The position numbers were made by a program, and so were the translations under genes. 64,000 bases of DNA from positions 28,027 to 92,026 of the IMG/VR virus record IMGVR_UViG_3300046740_000431, one strand, 5' to 3'. The stretch comes from a virus. The notes beneath the pieces are model-generated. The model did no database searches. It was not told the origin of the DNA and saw only the letters and a list, made by a program, of their open reading frames with translations. Of this stretch, positions 17,731 to 60,023 are shown in pieces. Each line of letters begins with the position of its first letter. The stretch's first letter is position 1.

Positions 17731-17740
17731 GTTCCCTCCG

Positions 17741-17834
17741 TGCACCAGGCGGGGCTCGAACCCGCGACCTTCGCAGCCGGACCGGAGGTATGACGCTCCG
17801 ACCGCGGACGCTCTACCGTCTGAGCTACCGGTGC
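17741..17834 (-). tRNA. Aberrant tRNA-like gene with about 21 extra bases
   Basis: Acceptor GCACCGG/CTGGTGC, D arm GCTC-AGACGGTA-GAGC and T arm GCGGG-TTCGAGC-CCCGC are all perfect, but the interval between D and T arms is 44 bases instead of about 23 for a class I tRNA. No canonical 5-bp anticodon stem with 7-base loop is found. GAGCGTC occurs twice, 8 bases apart, suggesting an internal duplication. Could be a decayed tRNA, one with an insertion in the anticodon region, or a class II tRNA with odd folding. Confidence 0.6.
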
Positions 17835-49878: not shown

Positions 49879-51018
49879 TCACAGCTCCTGGATGGTGATC
49901 ACGACGAAGACCCCGGCGGCCTTGATCGAATCGAGTAGCGCGTAGAGGCCGGCGAAGAACTCCTCGAGCCCGAAGTCGCGCCCGTCGTACGCCGGGGCCC
50001 GCGCCGGCGGGGCTAGCGTGTCGGGCACGTCGTACGCGGACAGCGCGCGGGTCGCCGCGGACGACGGGATCCCTACGTCATCCCCGTCCGGGTCGTCATA
50101 GGCGAACCCGTAGTCGGCAATGGCCGGCGGCATCGCGACCTCGACGATGAACGCGCCGAGGTAGTCGCTCTCGCCGAGGTACCGGTTGCGGATCGGAGAC
50201 GCCGGGCGCGGGTCGTCGTAGGCGAACAGCGTGGAGTCGAACGGCTCGCCGGGCAGCGGTCCTGCGTCGGGGGCGTCGTAGCACTCCTGGTACTCGTGCC
50301 TCCACGTCTCGATCCGGCGCCAGAACAGGCCGGGGAAGCGGCGGAAGTAGTTCGTGAGCTGCCGCATGATCGCAGCCGGCGAGACCGTGTCCGGGAGGGT
50401 CCTGATTCTGGTCTGGTAGCTCTGGTCACCTTCGCCGGGCTGCCTTGGGAGCTCGCGCTCTGAGCCCAGCACGTCGAGCGTGGCCGGTCGCCCGAGCCCA
50501 TCCGCGTCAGCGTCGTTCCTCACCCTGATCGACGGGTCCCAGAACACCGGGCTCTGCAGCGGAAGGTCGATGGTGTCGAGCTCGCCAGGCCAGGAGACGC
50601 CCTGTGGGTCGACGAACGGCCCCTTGATGTTCCACTCGTAGCCGTAGCCCAGCGCCTGAGCGGTCCCGGACGCCTGCAGCGCGCCGGCACTGAACGCCAC
50701 GTTCGAGAGCAACCGGAAGCCCTGCCCGCCGCGGCTGGCGCGCACGACCGTCCCGGCCAGCATGACGCCAGCTCCGGCGGCCGCGTTGCCGCGGTAGAAC
50801 GTCGCCGGCACGGTCGCCAGCACGCCGCCGCGCGCGGTCAGGATGTGGACGTCGCGGTCGAAGTTAACGACAGCCGACGAGCAGCGGGCCCCGACAGCGG
50901 CGGCCGCCTGGTACAGCTCGTAGCCAGGCCCGACGTCGCGCAGCGGCGCGAGATAGGAATCCGGGATCGCGCGGCCGATCGCGGCGAGCAGCTGGTCCTG
51001 TGTCAGCGGAACGAACAT
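49879..51018 (-). CDS. Baseplate wedge protein (gpI-like)
   Basis: 379 residues following the J-like gene with a TGATG overlap. LLAAIGRAIPDSYLAPLRDV, a beta-rich middle (GGVLATVPATFYRGNAAAGA, VVRASRGGQGFRLLSNVAFS), and an acidic C-terminal half ending in LEEFFAGLYALLDSIKAAGV. Order J then I is classic for P2-like baseplates, but the sequence is larger and divergent. Role inferred from order. Confidence 0.65.
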   Translation of the reverse strand: MFVPLTQDQLLAAIGRAIPDSYLAPLRDVGPGYELYQAAAAVGARCSSAVVNFDRDVHILTARGGVLATVPATFYRGNAAAGAGVMLAGTVVRASRGGQGFRLLSNVAFSAGALQASGTAQALGYGYEWNIKGPFVDPQGVSWPGELDTIDLPLQSPVFWDPSIRVRNDADADGLGRPATLDVLGSERELPRQPGEGDQSYQTRIRTLPDTVSPAAIMRQLTNYFRRFPGLFWRRIETWRHEYQECYDAPDAGPLPGEPFDSTLFAYDDPRPASPIRNRYLGESDYLGAFIVEVAMPPAIADYGFAYDDPDGDDVGIPSSAATRALSAYDVPDTLAPPARAPAYDGRDFGLEEFFAGLYALLDSIKAAGVFVVITIQEL

Positions 51019-52208
51019 CAGACGTTCGTCGCCTGGCTCTGGAGGGTCGCCTGGCTGTCGGTGGTGACCAGCGCGAGCGACGTCGCCAGCTTCTGGTACG
51101 GGCTCGTCGGGATCAGCGGGCCAACCGGGGAGGCCACCTCGTCGCCGAAGACGTCGATCCCGCTCACGCTGCGCAGGAGCGTGGGGACGACCGCCGGATC
51201 GAACGTCGTGCCCGGCTTGCTGCCGTTGATCAGCTGGACGACCAGCGTCCGCGCGAACAGCGCCACGGCGTCCGGGTTGGTCACGGTGGCCTGGAAGCGG
51301 AGGCGCAACACGACCGAGATCAGGCGAACCTGCGCGACCACGACGCGGACCGGAATCCCGTCAGCGCGGAACTCGTCGAGCGCGGCCGACACGACCTGGG
51401 CGAACGCCTGGCTCTTGACCTCGTAGGTCGGGACCGCTACCCCCTGCTTCACCAGCGCGTCGGTGAACCCGTCGGAGATCACCAGCGTTACCGATCGCGT
51501 GGGGAACCCGAACGACTGCAGCGACTCGATCGCCACGGCACGCACCACGCCGGGCACCGCGAGCGCGCCGGTCTCGATCGCCCCCTTGGTGCCGCGGCGC
51601 GCGGCGACGAAGAACAGCCTGATGCGCGTCTTGAAGTCGTCGTCGCTCTCGACGGTCGCCCCGCCGGCTGCGGCCTCCGGGTTGGTGACGGCGAGCCCGG
51701 CCGGCGCGCCGGGCACCGAGGAAGTCAAGTTGATGATCTTGCCGCTGGCCACGTTCTGGTCGAGCCCGGCGAGCGTGGACCTCGCGAGCACCTGGATCGG
51801 CCCGATTCCGCCGAGCGGGAACGGCGTGGCGACGACGGTGCGGAACTCCTGGCCCGTACCGGTCGCGCCGCGCGTCCCGGCGGGAATCGTGAACGCAACC
51901 GGAGATGCCGTCGGGAACGAGAACGCCAGGTAGACGAACGACGGCGCCGCCGGCTTCTTCTGGAGCGTGTATCGGTCCCACGCCCAGCGCTCGAGCTTCG
52001 CTCCGAACGCCGAGTCGAGCCACACACCCTCCTCCACCGCGGCGAGCTGGCCGATGACCTCCTCGCCGACGACCGCCGTCGCGTAGCCGTGGATGTTCGA
52101 GTCGGAGCCGTCGCGGTCGACCGCGTTGACCGTGAGCCGCTGGCTCCGCGACACCGCCTCGTCGCGGAACACGCGGAACAGATCTCCGGCCTTCGGGAAG
52201 TCGGGCAT
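51018..52208 (-). CDS. Baseplate J-like protein
   Basis: 396 residues. Patterns ESDDDFKTRIRLFFVAARRG, TKGAIETGALAVPGVVRAVA and the long beta/alpha middle are characteristic of baseplate J/gp47 proteins that form the wedge ring. It follows the gp25-like gene and precedes the gpI-like gene. Confidence 0.85.
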   Translation of the reverse strand: MPDFPKAGDLFRVFRDEAVSRSQRLTVNAVDRDGSDSNIHGYATAVVGEEVIGQLAAVEEGVWLDSAFGAKLERWAWDRYTLQKKPAAPSFVYLAFSFPTASPVAFTIPAGTRGATGTGQEFRTVVATPFPLGGIGPIQVLARSTLAGLDQNVASGKIINLTSSVPGAPAGLAVTNPEAAAGGATVESDDDFKTRIRLFFVAARRGTKGAIETGALAVPGVVRAVAIESLQSFGFPTRSVTLVISDGFTDALVKQGVAVPTYEVKSQAFAQVVSAALDEFRADGIPVRVVVAQVRLISVVLRLRFQATVTNPDAVALFARTLVVQLINGSKPGTTFDPAVVPTLLRSVSGIDVFGDEVASPVGPLIPTSPYQKLATSLALVTTDSQATLQSQATNV

Positions 52209-57201: not shown

Positions 57202-58845
57202 TCACCGGAACGAGAACAGCGGGCGAACCCCGGAGTCGAGCCGGCGCTCGCCCAGGCGAGCGAGATCGTCACCGAACGCCACGGCCACGCGCCCGCCGTC
57301 GATCCCTGGTGGGAAGTTGTTGTTGATCTCGAACTTGCTGCCCCTGAAGTCCTGATACGTGCCGGCGCCCGCCGCGCTCGCGGTGCCGCGCTTGCCGTCG
57401 TCGGCGGCTGAGCTCGCGCCGTTGAGGTCGATCTTGTCGATGCTGACCCCGGGAAGCTTGTTGATCAGCCCGATCACCTTGTTGACGATCCAGATGATCG
57501 CGTCCATCACGGCGTTGATCACGTCGCCGAGGAAGCCGATGTACTTGACGATGATCAGGATCTGAAACAGGAGCGCCCCGGCGAAGACGCTCACGATCGG
57601 CTTGATCGCTTCCCACAGCTTCCCGAGCACGGCGATCACCTTGGTGATGATCCCGCGCCCGGTCTCGACGATCCCGCCGAACGCCTTCACGAACATGTCG
57701 CGGATGCCCCACACGTTTCGCTTGAGCATCTCGAACGCCACGATCAGGACCGTGATCACCGCGCCGATGATCCCCAGGCGTCCGGCGACCGTGCTGATGA
57801 TCCTGATGATGGGACCTCCGGCGGTCGCGAACATGCCGATCCCGGGGTTGGCTGCTTTGGCGGCGAAGAAGTCCATCCCGCCGGCCGCGCCGGCGCGGCG
57901 CTCCATGAACCCCATAGCGCCGCTGAACAGCTGCTTCCCTCGACCGACGATCCCCATCTTCTCCGACGAGACCAGGTTGACGGCCTTCGAGGCGATCAGC
58001 AGCGCCAGGTACGTCTTCGCGGCCTTGACCACGAGGTCCATGTGGCTCGACAGCCCCTTGCCGATCGCGGCTACGACCGGGCCGATGTCGTCGAACATGC
58101 TCTTGATGGCCTGCAGGGACGCGGTGATCGCCGGGATCAGGTTCTTGTAGAACACGCCGATCAGGTCACCGAACGCGTCGCCGAGCTCGCGCCTGACCTG
58201 GAGCATCTGCCGGTAGCTCTCGAGCGTGGCGTCGTTGATCGCGTCGGCGCCCGCGATCGTGTCGTCCTGGATAGCCTTGAGCTTGTCGGGGCCCTGCTTG
58301 AGCATCGACATCATCGCCGCGGCCTGCGACCTGGGTAGGCCGAACCCCTGGATCATCTCGTTGATGTCGAGCTTCCCGTCGACGGCCGCCTTCGACAGCG
58401 CGACGATCCGCTTCTCGGGCCCATCCTTGATCGAGACCCCGAGGTCTTTGTACAGCTTGTTCAGCTTCTGGGTGGTGGCACCGACGCCGGCCATCCCGTC
58501 CTCGAGCTTGGCGCCCTTCGCGGTCATCGACGTGATGATCCGCTCGGCAGATCCCATCTCGATGCCGGAGAGCTCGAACATGTCGAACAGCGAGTGCGCC
58601 TTCTCGGCCGCCAGGCCGGTCATGTCGTGCACGCGCATGACGGCCTGGTAGAGCTGGTCGACGTCGTGGACCCCTTCGGCGATCTTCCACATCCCAGCGA
58701 TCCCGCTGGCGGCGCCGACGATCTCGCCGAGCCCGTGGAATGACGCCATGACGTTCTTCGCGGACTTCGCGAGCATGCTGAGCTTGCTCGCGGCAGCGTC
58801 CGCGCCGTCGATGACGATCTTTTCCCTGAGCTCTACCTCGCTCAT
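57202..58845 (-). CDS. Tail tape measure protein
   Basis: 547 residues. Helical N-terminus with SKLSMLAKSAKNVMASFHGL, Met/Ala-rich helices, then several hydrophobic membrane-like segments (IRIISTVAGRLGIIGAVITV, FAGALLFQILIIVKYIGFLG, AVMDAIIWIVNKVIGLINKL) and a polar C-terminus. Short for a tape measure, implying a tail of modest length. It follows the frameshifted chaperone, as expected. Confidence 0.88.
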   Translation of the reverse strand: MSEVELREKIVIDGADAAASKLSMLAKSAKNVMASFHGLGEIVGAASGIAGMWKIAEGVHDVDQLYQAVMRVHDMTGLAAEKAHSLFDMFELSGIEMGSAERIITSMTAKGAKLEDGMAGVGATTQKLNKLYKDLGVSIKDGPEKRIVALSKAAVDGKLDINEMIQGFGLPRSQAAAMMSMLKQGPDKLKAIQDDTIAGADAINDATLESYRQMLQVRRELGDAFGDLIGVFYKNLIPAITASLQAIKSMFDDIGPVVAAIGKGLSSHMDLVVKAAKTYLALLIASKAVNLVSSEKMGIVGRGKQLFSGAMGFMERRAGAAGGMDFFAAKAANPGIGMFATAGGPIIRIISTVAGRLGIIGAVITVLIVAFEMLKRNVWGIRDMFVKAFGGIVETGRGIITKVIAVLGKLWEAIKPIVSVFAGALLFQILIIVKYIGFLGDVINAVMDAIIWIVNKVIGLINKLPGVSIDKIDLNGASSAADDGKRGTASAAGAGTYQDFRGSKFEINNNFPPGIDGGRVAVAFGDDLARLGERRLDSGVRPLFSFR

Positions 58846-58846
58846 T

Positions 58847-59119
58847 TCATCTCTTCCTGGCGGCTTCCGCCTGCTTGCGCTCCTCTTCGAGGAGCTCGTG
58901 AACCTGGTCGGCCCAGGACAACAGGGTGACGGTCGGCTCGTGCTGGGCTTCGGTGGCCGGCTGCCGGCCGTAGCGCGAGAGGTACATCAGGAGGCGGTCG
59001 ACGTTGCGGGCGTACTCGGCGGGCGTCCGGTACATCTTCGCCAGGCGAAGCGAGTACAGGACGCCGAATGGGATGAGCGGCCGACGGGTTACGCCCGGAT
59101 CCGTCGGCTCTTGATAAAA
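58847..59119 (-). CDS. Tail assembly chaperone GT extension, reached by -1 frameshift
   Basis: Frame -1 relative to the upstream chaperone, open from the slip site to a TGA just before the tape-measure ATG. The fused reading is ...STARSF / YQEPTDPGVTRRPLIPFGVL..., followed by LRLAKMYRTPAEYARNVDRL and a coiled-coil tail ending EERKQAEAARKR. There is no good independent start. The product would be a longer G-T protein that binds the tape measure. Confidence 0.7.
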   Translation of the reverse strand, partial: FYQEPTDPGVTRRPLIPFGVLYSLRLAKMYRTPAEYARNVDRLLMYLSRYGRQPATEAQHEPTVTLLSWADQVHELLEEERKQAEAARKR

Positions 59120-59538
59120 CTCCGAGCGGTCGACGCGTTCGGGACGGCGATGTCGGAGTACGCCTGGATCGTGAGCTGGCGGAGCTTCGGGTGCATCTGG
59201 GCCCACAGCTCCTCGCTGGAGCCGTCGTGCTGGTGAACCTCGATGTACTCGCCGGTCTCGTTGATCACGCCGGCGATGGACCGGCGCGCCAGCTGGTAGG
59301 CCAGGTCGATCGACTCGGTGCCAGACGCGGTGGTCGCCGCCTTCTCCTCGAGCGGCGTGAGGAGCTTGAGGCAGATCGTGCGGATCGATCCGAAGCTCGT
59401 GGTGACGTAGCTGAGCAGCCGCTCCTCGTCGTCCGGCACGTCGTACTCGGCGATCGTGCGCGGCCGCGGCGCGGCGTCGATGAGCCCTGGAATGGGCCCG
59501 GGGCGGGCGCCGTTGCCGGTGCGGTTGTGGTTAGCCAT
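59089..59538 (-). CDS. Tail assembly chaperone (G)
   Basis: 149 residues from ATG 59538 with AAGGA upstream. Helical protein with DVPDDEERLLSYVTTSFGSI, RTICLKLLTPLEEKAATTAS and ESIDLAYQLARRSIAGVINE, ending SFIKSRRIRA. Located between tube and tape measure, where gpG lies. The AGT-TTT-ATC codons 8 triplets before the stop allow -1 slippage into the T frame. Confidence 0.8.
   Translation of the reverse strand: MANHNRTGNGARPGPIPGLIDAAPRPRTIAEYDVPDDEERLLSYVTTSFGSIRTICLKLLTPLEEKAATTASGTESIDLAYQLARRSIAGVINETGEYIEVHQHDGSSEELWAQMHPKLRQLTIQAYSDIAVPNASTARSFIKSRRIRA
59113..59121 (-). other. Candidate -1 frameshift site T TTT A
   Basis: On the coding strand the bases read AGT TTT ATC, with TTTT at 59116-59119. 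The Phe codon can shift back to TTT, giving TTT TAT CAA in the -1 frame. The codons before are not a full X XXY YYZ heptamer. It lies about 8 codons before the zero-frame stop, the usual position in chaperone genes. Confidence 0.55.
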
Positions 59539-59588: not shown

Positions 59589-60023
59589 TCAGCGCGAGAC
59601 GATGCGGCCGTTCTCGGCCTCCCACGACAGGGTCATCTTGCCGTAGTCGGTGCGCGAGCCGAACGACATCGGGACGTCGGAGAAAAAGACGTTGGGGACA
59701 TTGATGATCGCACGGTCTCCGTCGGGGAACTGGAGGGTCGACTTGATGCCGATCTGGGTTGTGATCGCCCGGTTCTGCGCGCGGGCCTGGATCGCCTGGA
59801 CCAGCGTCAGGGCGTCGCTGTTCTCCATGTCGATCTCGATCTTCCCGGAGAGCCCCTCGAAGAAATCGTCTTTCCGGGGAGAGGTCTCGCCGATGTACTC
59901 CTCGGTCTTGATCGAGAACTTCCAGTTCACGTCGAAGCTCCGCACCGCCGTGATCGTCTTGATCGGGGTTCGGTCGACCACGATGGTCACCGACGTGTCC
60001 TGGCCTGCGATTCTTTGGTCCAT
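59589..60023 (-). CDS. Tail tube protein
   Basis: 144 residues with AGGAG 9 bases before the ATG. RIAGQDTSVTIVVDRTPIKT, the tube-like AVRSFDVNWKFSIKTEEYIG, KIEIDMENSDALTLVQAIQA and the C-terminal SFGSRTDYGKMTLSWEAENG match P2/Mu-like tail tube proteins. Position after the sheath is as in myovirus tail operons. Confidence 0.88.
   Translation of the reverse strand: MDQRIAGQDTSVTIVVDRTPIKTITAVRSFDVNWKFSIKTEEYIGETSPRKDDFFEGLSGKIEIDMENSDALTLVQAIQARAQNRAITTQIGIKSTLQFPDGDRAIINVPNVFFSDVPMSFGSRTDYGKMTLSWEAENGRIVSR

Follow-up and report, generated by a model that had tools for sequence, protein, structure and literature searches.

The window, a stretch of 64,000 nucleotides, is part of a 92,026-base contig of an uncultured virus and carries a tail operon on its minus strand. 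This operon encodes, in order, a sheath-like protein, a 120-aa protein, the tube protein, two overlapping frames designated G and T, the tape-measure protein and baseplate genes including baseplate J. The genes relevant here are the following:

59589..60023, minus strand: presumed tail tube protein, 144 aa, adjoining G upstream (phrog_290 minor tail protein, E 0.01; phrog_12993, E 1.6e-4)
59089..59538, minus strand: G, 149 aa, tail assembly chaperone-like product of normal decoding, from the ATG at 59538 to the TAA ending at 59089 (homologues in relatives; predicted fold)
58847..59116, minus strand: T extension in the -1 frame, from TAT to TGA, putatively read after a slip on T_TTT
57202..58845, minus strand: tape-measure protein, 547 aa (phrog_991 tail length tape measure, E 3.1e-6)
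51018..52208, minus strand: baseplate J protein, 396 aa (PF04865, E 5.2e-19), the query for the first relatives

G and T are located between the tube (60023-59589) and the tape measure (58845-57202), an order that is identical in the relatives L002, L003, L011 and L012, and the ATG of the tape-measure gene lies one base beyond the stop codon of T. The product of 59589..60023 is presumably the tube protein; it is kept at the same position in five relatives at 38-67% identity. The presumed sheath (window 62570-60558) has barely any profile match (phrog_23, E 0.16), and a search of the PDB with this protein gave no convincing match. Since the sheath name is weak, it is baseplate J that suggests a contractile tail.

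The G protein was modeled poorly when folded alone (pLDDT 48), and a pLDDT of 75 was obtained with six sequences. The solved structures nearest to the predicted G are YqbN (3klu, Z 7.3 over 98 residues) and the HK97 tail assembly chaperone (2ob9, Z 5.1 over 97 residues), which also occupy rows one and four of the Foldseek search of the PDB with E values of 0.3-0.7; nothing in that search reached E <= 0.001, and all Z scores were under 8. In the Foldseek viral library the first named match was the 'Tail assembly chaperone' of Bacillus phage Gemini (E 2.1e-3, prob 1.00), followed in lower rows by other tail assembly chaperones and by Mu FS-gp41 (E 0.49). Pfam and PHROGs gave no meaningful match for six G and six T members (best E 0.09), and the best E value of five further G and five further T proteins in PHROGs was 0.024. 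As chaperone families are very divergent, this lack of profile matches is not decisive. No relatives were found in INPHARED (50,697 phage records) with G, the sheath, the T of L004 and three tube queries, in IMG/VR with G, or in the genome_contigs search with GT and baseplate J. A G profile searched against the PDB retrieved Wzc kinases (E 4e-4), which was judged to be a chance match of coiled or helical sequence and was set aside. Taken with gene position and reading frame, the modest fold matches make a tail chaperone pair the best call for G and T.

The following elements were located in the overlap of the two frames:

59113..59122, minus strand: slip context G_AGT_TTT_ATC (5' to 3' on the minus strand), near the end of G within CGG AGT TTT ATC AAG AGC
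59116..59119, minus strand: T_TTT tetramer, proposed site of the -1 shift, a minimal in-phase Z_ZZN sequence at a place conserved in relatives
59204..59206, minus strand: GTG, the first possible start in the -1 frame, a rival initiation site judged to be unused

From about 59530 the -1 frame runs without a stop beyond the end of G to the TGA ending at 58847, which results in an overlap of 146 codons with G. The reading frames thus agree with the initial annotation, which had G ending at 59089 and an uninterrupted -1 frame running to 58847. The interval of 59089-59206 that it gave for the shift is correct at the G end, whereas 59206 is simply the first GTG of the -1 frame and no boundary of a feature. 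A long -1 frame by itself proves little, because spurious long ORFs are common in the GC-rich DNA of the window. AGT TTT ATC (59121-59113) is the sole T_TTT site in the overlap, the remaining in-phase Z_ZZN sites being C-runs at -384, -72 and -24 nt, and a canonical X_XXY_YYZ heptamer is absent from the 146 codons. Runs of four T or four A are scarce in the window, with 19 and 17 occurrences per 64 kb at a GC content of 68.6%. The predicted slip product GT comprises 230 aa with the junction ...ARS-F-YQEP.... Two tRNA genes are present on the minus strand of the window, for Met (cat, 105-179) and Pro (cgg, 17740-17834), and no tRNA-Phe able to bear on the slip was found in the 64 kb.

A search with baseplate J identified the relatives L002, L003 and L004 (71, 65 and 52% identical) and then L011 and L012. 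Both G and a T in the -1 frame are present in all five. At the slip, the window reads AGT TTT ATC, L002 GCT TTT ATG, L003 GTT TTT CTC, L004 GAT TTT CTC, L011 AGT TTT CTG and L012 AGT TTT TTG. An in-frame NNT|TTT is therefore located 27-30 nt before the stop of G in 6/6 phages, and this retention of TTTT at homologous positions supports the slip context proposed for the window. TTT accounts for 0-5.7% of the Phe codons of these GC-rich phages, and the T-ending codon preceding it for 1.6-18.7% of the codons of its amino acid. Given the amino acids and the codon use, the joint chance of TTT and NNT in the six phages is about 10^-17.6 if independence is assumed. Among 19,158 codons in other tail genes of the same phages just two in-frame NNT TTT were found, compared with six of six homologous places. 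Beyond the slip, T shows a coding-like distribution of GC over the codon positions with high third-position GC in all six phages, the value for L012 being just 0.70. By codon usage the frame change falls close to the site, and displacing it 60 nt upstream costs 16-38 log units in 6/6; the optimum of this measure lies 6-42 nt off, with the slip 3-8 log units lower, and TTTT cannot be pinpointed by it because the TTT codon is rare. The weight of the case is carried by conservation. The slip region (59121-59101 in the window, and its counterparts in the relatives) is doubly coding, with F-[LI]-x-S-R in G and F-[SYF]-x-E-P in T both conserved. An ORF of 427 aa among the tail genes of L004 (6264-7547) consists largely of collagen-like Gly-X-X repeats and probably encodes a tail fibre.

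A wider family was collected by an alignment search with the tube protein, which retrieved 70 loci. Three of these ran off the contig, three had no G ORF and L028 yielded no frame, leaving 63. Addition of the window and L004 gave 65, removal of eight near-duplicates at 90% gave 57, and removal of L079, L082, L084 and L085, whose G candidates were unlinked by blastp and in which the T pattern was not seen, gave 53. The tube loci L026-L095 represent one lineage of uncultured tailed phages whose tail module is unrecognised. All 53 retained non-redundant phages (53/57 before the unlinked loci were removed) contain G and a -1 frame T, with an in-phase slip site located 24-36 nt ahead of the stop of G. 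The G ORF of each locus was picked by eye with a -1 partner favored, and +1 partners are also open in some loci. A canonical X_XXY_YYZ heptamer occurs in 31 of the 53, as U_UUU_UUN (17), G_GGU_UUU (5), A_AAU_UUU (3), G_GGA_AAA (4) or A_AAA_AAG (2). The other 22, including the window, are non-canonical, which bears out the initial remark that its site is not a standard heptamer: 20 contain NNU_UUU without a following UUN, of which seven are G_GNU, and the remaining two contain U_UUC (L031) and G_GUU_UUC (L080). NNT_TTT is kept in 45/53, and the distance from slip to stop is 27 or 30 nt in 44/46 (the 45 NNT_TTT sites and L031).

The place of the shift is confirmed by canonical heptamers that occupy it in relatives, of which U_UUU_UUG in L012 and L052 is the nearest. 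The -1 frame of L049 and L037 opens just 46 and 43 nt before the stop of G, respectively, and the sole Z_ZZN there is g_TCT_TTT or g_GTT_TTT. This indicates that the non-canonical site itself must serve if such -1 slippage occurs. In a distinct clade (L073, L077, L078 and L089) G ends with G_GGA_AAA and has no T-run site, and thus the slip sequence is replaced there while place and frame are retained.

The region downstream of the slip site was analyzed for RNA structures, and the computed fold of the window contains the following elements:

59101..59108, minus strand: 5' arm of a hairpin, GCCGACGG, a perfect 8-bp stem starting 7 nt after TTTT
59088..59100, minus strand: hairpin loop of 13 nt in the computed fold, holding the TAA stop of G
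59080..59087, minus strand: 3' arm, CCGTCGGC, pairing with GCCGACGG
59007..59014, minus strand: possible pseudoknot partner, TACGCCCG, with an 8-bp match to loop bases 59090-59097

A local stem as long as the 8 bp of the window starts in 0.7% of the background 6-nt windows. At a setting of 90 nt the fold of the window has a z of -3.4, which is matched by 1.7% of 118 background windows; it is unremarkable at 60 nt and shorter settings, and the six phages showed no consistent signal at 45 or 60 nt. The setting of 90 nt was selected once the results of nine settings on the six phages were available, and the analysis was then repeated with 47 further loci. These 47 loci, which lay outside the choice of setting, were folded in excess of background (mean z -1.28 against -0.27, p 1.4e-6), and the 16 non-canonical loci among them also had a folding excess (p 0.015). 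Canonical and non-canonical sites did not differ in folding (p 0.31; 53 loci including the first six, with the G_GTT_TTC site of L080 grouped with the canonical ones in these folding comparisons), and there is thus no support for stronger stems at weak sites. Four of the five other phages share the AGCCG at which the folded 5' arm starts, with different partners for this arm; L012 has no stem at the expected place. Double coding of the slip region would by itself preserve the 5' arm. The opening probability at the place of the 5' arm, averaged over the six phages, is mildly unusual (956/50,000 resamplings). The pairing of the hairpin loop with 59007-59014 was equalled by 85/3000 shuffles and 4/330 genomic stretches, and the possible pseudoknot is weak and could be due to chance. 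No Shine-Dalgarno-like element was found about 10 nt upstream of the slip site; the best anti-SD matches of the window fall at the slip site itself, and their positions vary among the six phages.

A programmed -1 ribosomal frameshift at TTTT in a tail assembly chaperone gene is the reading suggested by these sequence comparisons, with a probability of roughly 0.92. The shift in a chaperone pair that had been proposed for the window is supported by gene position, by the -1 frame and slip place observed in all 53 retained phages and by the predicted fold of G. Most ribosomes would finish G. A fraction of those reading TTT at 59118-59116 would slip one base back on T_TTT, with re-pairing of tRNA-Phe at UUU as the key step, and continue in the T frame to produce GT. 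The RNA stem that starts 7 nt past TTTT probably pauses the ribosome. GT probably acts in a lambda-like manner, with its G part on the tape measure and its T part recruiting tube subunits. Re-pairing of the P-site codon AGT on GAG is hardly feasible, so that the site of the window is probably a single-tRNA (Z_ZZN) site. Slippage of a single tRNA-Phe is thus ranked first and is probably the mechanism in the window.

The main alternative is tandem slippage of the P- and A-site tRNAs with imperfect P-site pairing, i.e. a degenerate heptamer, which is possible but would be the less expected outcome. It is favored by the distribution of X_XXU, which is present in 8/28 NNT_TTT sites without UUN and in 0/17 with UUN (Fisher p 0.017); one half of the heptamer thus tends to be present among the 45 NNT_TTT sites, and neither half is found in 20/45. 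Furthermore, the seven G_GNU sites resemble G_GU and G_GA sequences that are described as intermediates in part of PMC5009743. On the other hand, 13 of the 20 bare NNU_UUU sites, including the window, lack a P-site match of this type (t_GCT, c_GAT, g_TCT, c_AGT, g_AGT and others), and the single-base match b0=P1 is equally common in U_UUU_UUN sites (9/17) and in the others (16/28). Canonical and non-canonical forms interchange, with 12 changes on the 53-row tree, and the bare NNU_UUU class is not clustered beyond shuffled labels (11 changes vs 11.8), counts that are rough as the tree was built with a quick method and has 15 open forks. This absence of clustering also argues against tandem slippage. 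Loci with U_UUU_UUN are less GC-rich than the others (median GC 0.587 vs 0.641, p 0.001). The codon following TTT is CTN in 24 of the 28 sites without UUN, and conversion of U_UUU_UUG to U_UUU_CUG is a one-step synonymous change of a Leu codon in G. Loss of the heptamer by GC drift is a simple, if unproven, reading of this pattern. It is conceivable, at slightly less than an even chance, that bare U_UUU drives the chaperone shift of this lineage via re-pairing of one tRNA-Phe, the rest of the heptamer being optional and repeatedly lost and regained, with its loss favored in GC-richer phages.

Separate translation of T from an internal start, without a fusion protein, is very improbable. The GTG at 59206 has a purine-rich GAGGAG two bases upstream, and a start codon is also present near -87/-90 in L002, L003 and L011. 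However, the -87 GTG derives from a conserved Trp codon of G, the candidate T starts of L004 are located elsewhere, and the T frame opens just 34-46 nt before the stop of G in L037, L049, L071, L088 and others. An independent start of T, named in the initial annotation as the observation that would contradict a programmed shift, was examined in L012 in particular: the open T frame has no upstream ATG, GTG or TTG there, the next start lies deep inside T, and codon usage opposes coding in the T frame at that place. Moreover, a separate start would leave the conserved NNT_TTT unexplained.

A shift at another position, e.g. at C_CCG 72 nt upstream, is less probable still. C_CCN is a formal Z_ZZN located in phase at exactly -72 in all of the first six phages. 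However, C_CCG encodes a conserved His-Pro or Asp-Pro of G, and its conservation can be attributed to this constraint on the protein. As stated above, codon usage penalizes a shift 60 nt ahead of TTTT by 16-38 log units, and in at least 10 relatives the T frame is closed before the C_CCG point (open for 34-49 nt). Finally, slippage of RNA polymerase on the T run or a sequencing error, as might be suspected from the homopolymer at the junction, is the least credible explanation, since transcriptional slippage is cited for An with n>7 and Tn with n>8 in part of PMC3711429, so that four T's are too few, and the same arrangement in 53 non-redundant contigs excludes an assembly error.

Programmed ribosomal slippage of the kind proposed for TTTT is known from other tailed phages. 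Xu, Hendrix and Duda reportedly described the G/GT frameshift of lambda and those in the tail assembly chaperones of other dsDNA phages in 2004. The gpG of lambda binds the tape measure, which gpGT connects to the tube protein, at a gpG:gpGT ratio of about 30:1, and in chaperone frameshift pairs generally GT is the minor product and the arrangement is widely conserved despite low sequence similarity (both from sections of PMC5009743). The locus of the window shares with lambda the two overlapping ORFs between tube and tape measure and, as proposed here, a -1 shift near the end of the first ORF; it differs in having no detectable sequence relation (Pfam/PHROGs, 50,697 phage records) and in a site without X_XXY_YYZ. 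Two chaperone frameshifts measured elsewhere reach 6-7%, according to a section of PMC3711429.

Reduced slip sites have precedents. In the passages of PMC5009743 on such sites, Z_ZZN is the minimal -1 site and A_AAG its studied case. A_AAG sites such as that of IS1222 (G_CGA_AAG) would share with the present family the re-pairing of one tRNA on an overlapping identical codon with a mismatched P site, whereas the family of the window uses U_UUU and would involve tRNA-Phe, belongs to tail chaperones and is interchangeable with heptamers in one gene family. Intermediates with G_GU or G_GA listed in the same part of PMC5009743 include gene 10 of phage T7 (G_GUU_UUC) as well as pea enation mosaic virus and dianthoviruses (G_GAU_UUU). 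These are resembled by L003/L027 and L037 (G_GTT_TTT), L004, L040 and L045 (G_GAT_TTT) and L080 (G_GTT_TTC), whereas G_AGT_TTT of the window has no G_G start. A portion of the PRFect paper (PMC10885494) states that most annotated SEA-PHAGES chaperone overlaps lack X_XXY_YYZ and proposes motifs of the type XXNYYYY. Judged by the names of its motifs 'twoonefour', 'twofour' and 'twofive', GGATTTT and GGCTTTT seem to fit, whereas GAGTTTT of the window apparently does not. In contrast to those overlaps, as presented in that portion, the sites described here are supported by conservation in a family and not by annotation. Z_ZZN sites, intermediates and the PRFect motifs are thus already described.

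The present analysis adds a conserved family with recurrent bare U_UUU sites that swap with heptamers. Within the scope of the open-access PMC literature, this is a known kind of recoding in an apparently undescribed chaperone family. Frameshift finders and annotators mostly seek X_XXY_YYZ, and 22 of the 53 family members would be missed by that rule. The slip signature provides a recognisable mark for chaperones whose G and T match no profile. As canonical and reduced sites occur at one fixed place in one gene, natural variants allow the contributions of P-site pairing, second codon and stem to be compared. Should the single-tRNA reading hold, a bare U_UUU would be maintainable by selection for a structural gene, and if bare U_UUU indeed drives the shift, this lineage would represent a natural experiment on the minimal slip site.
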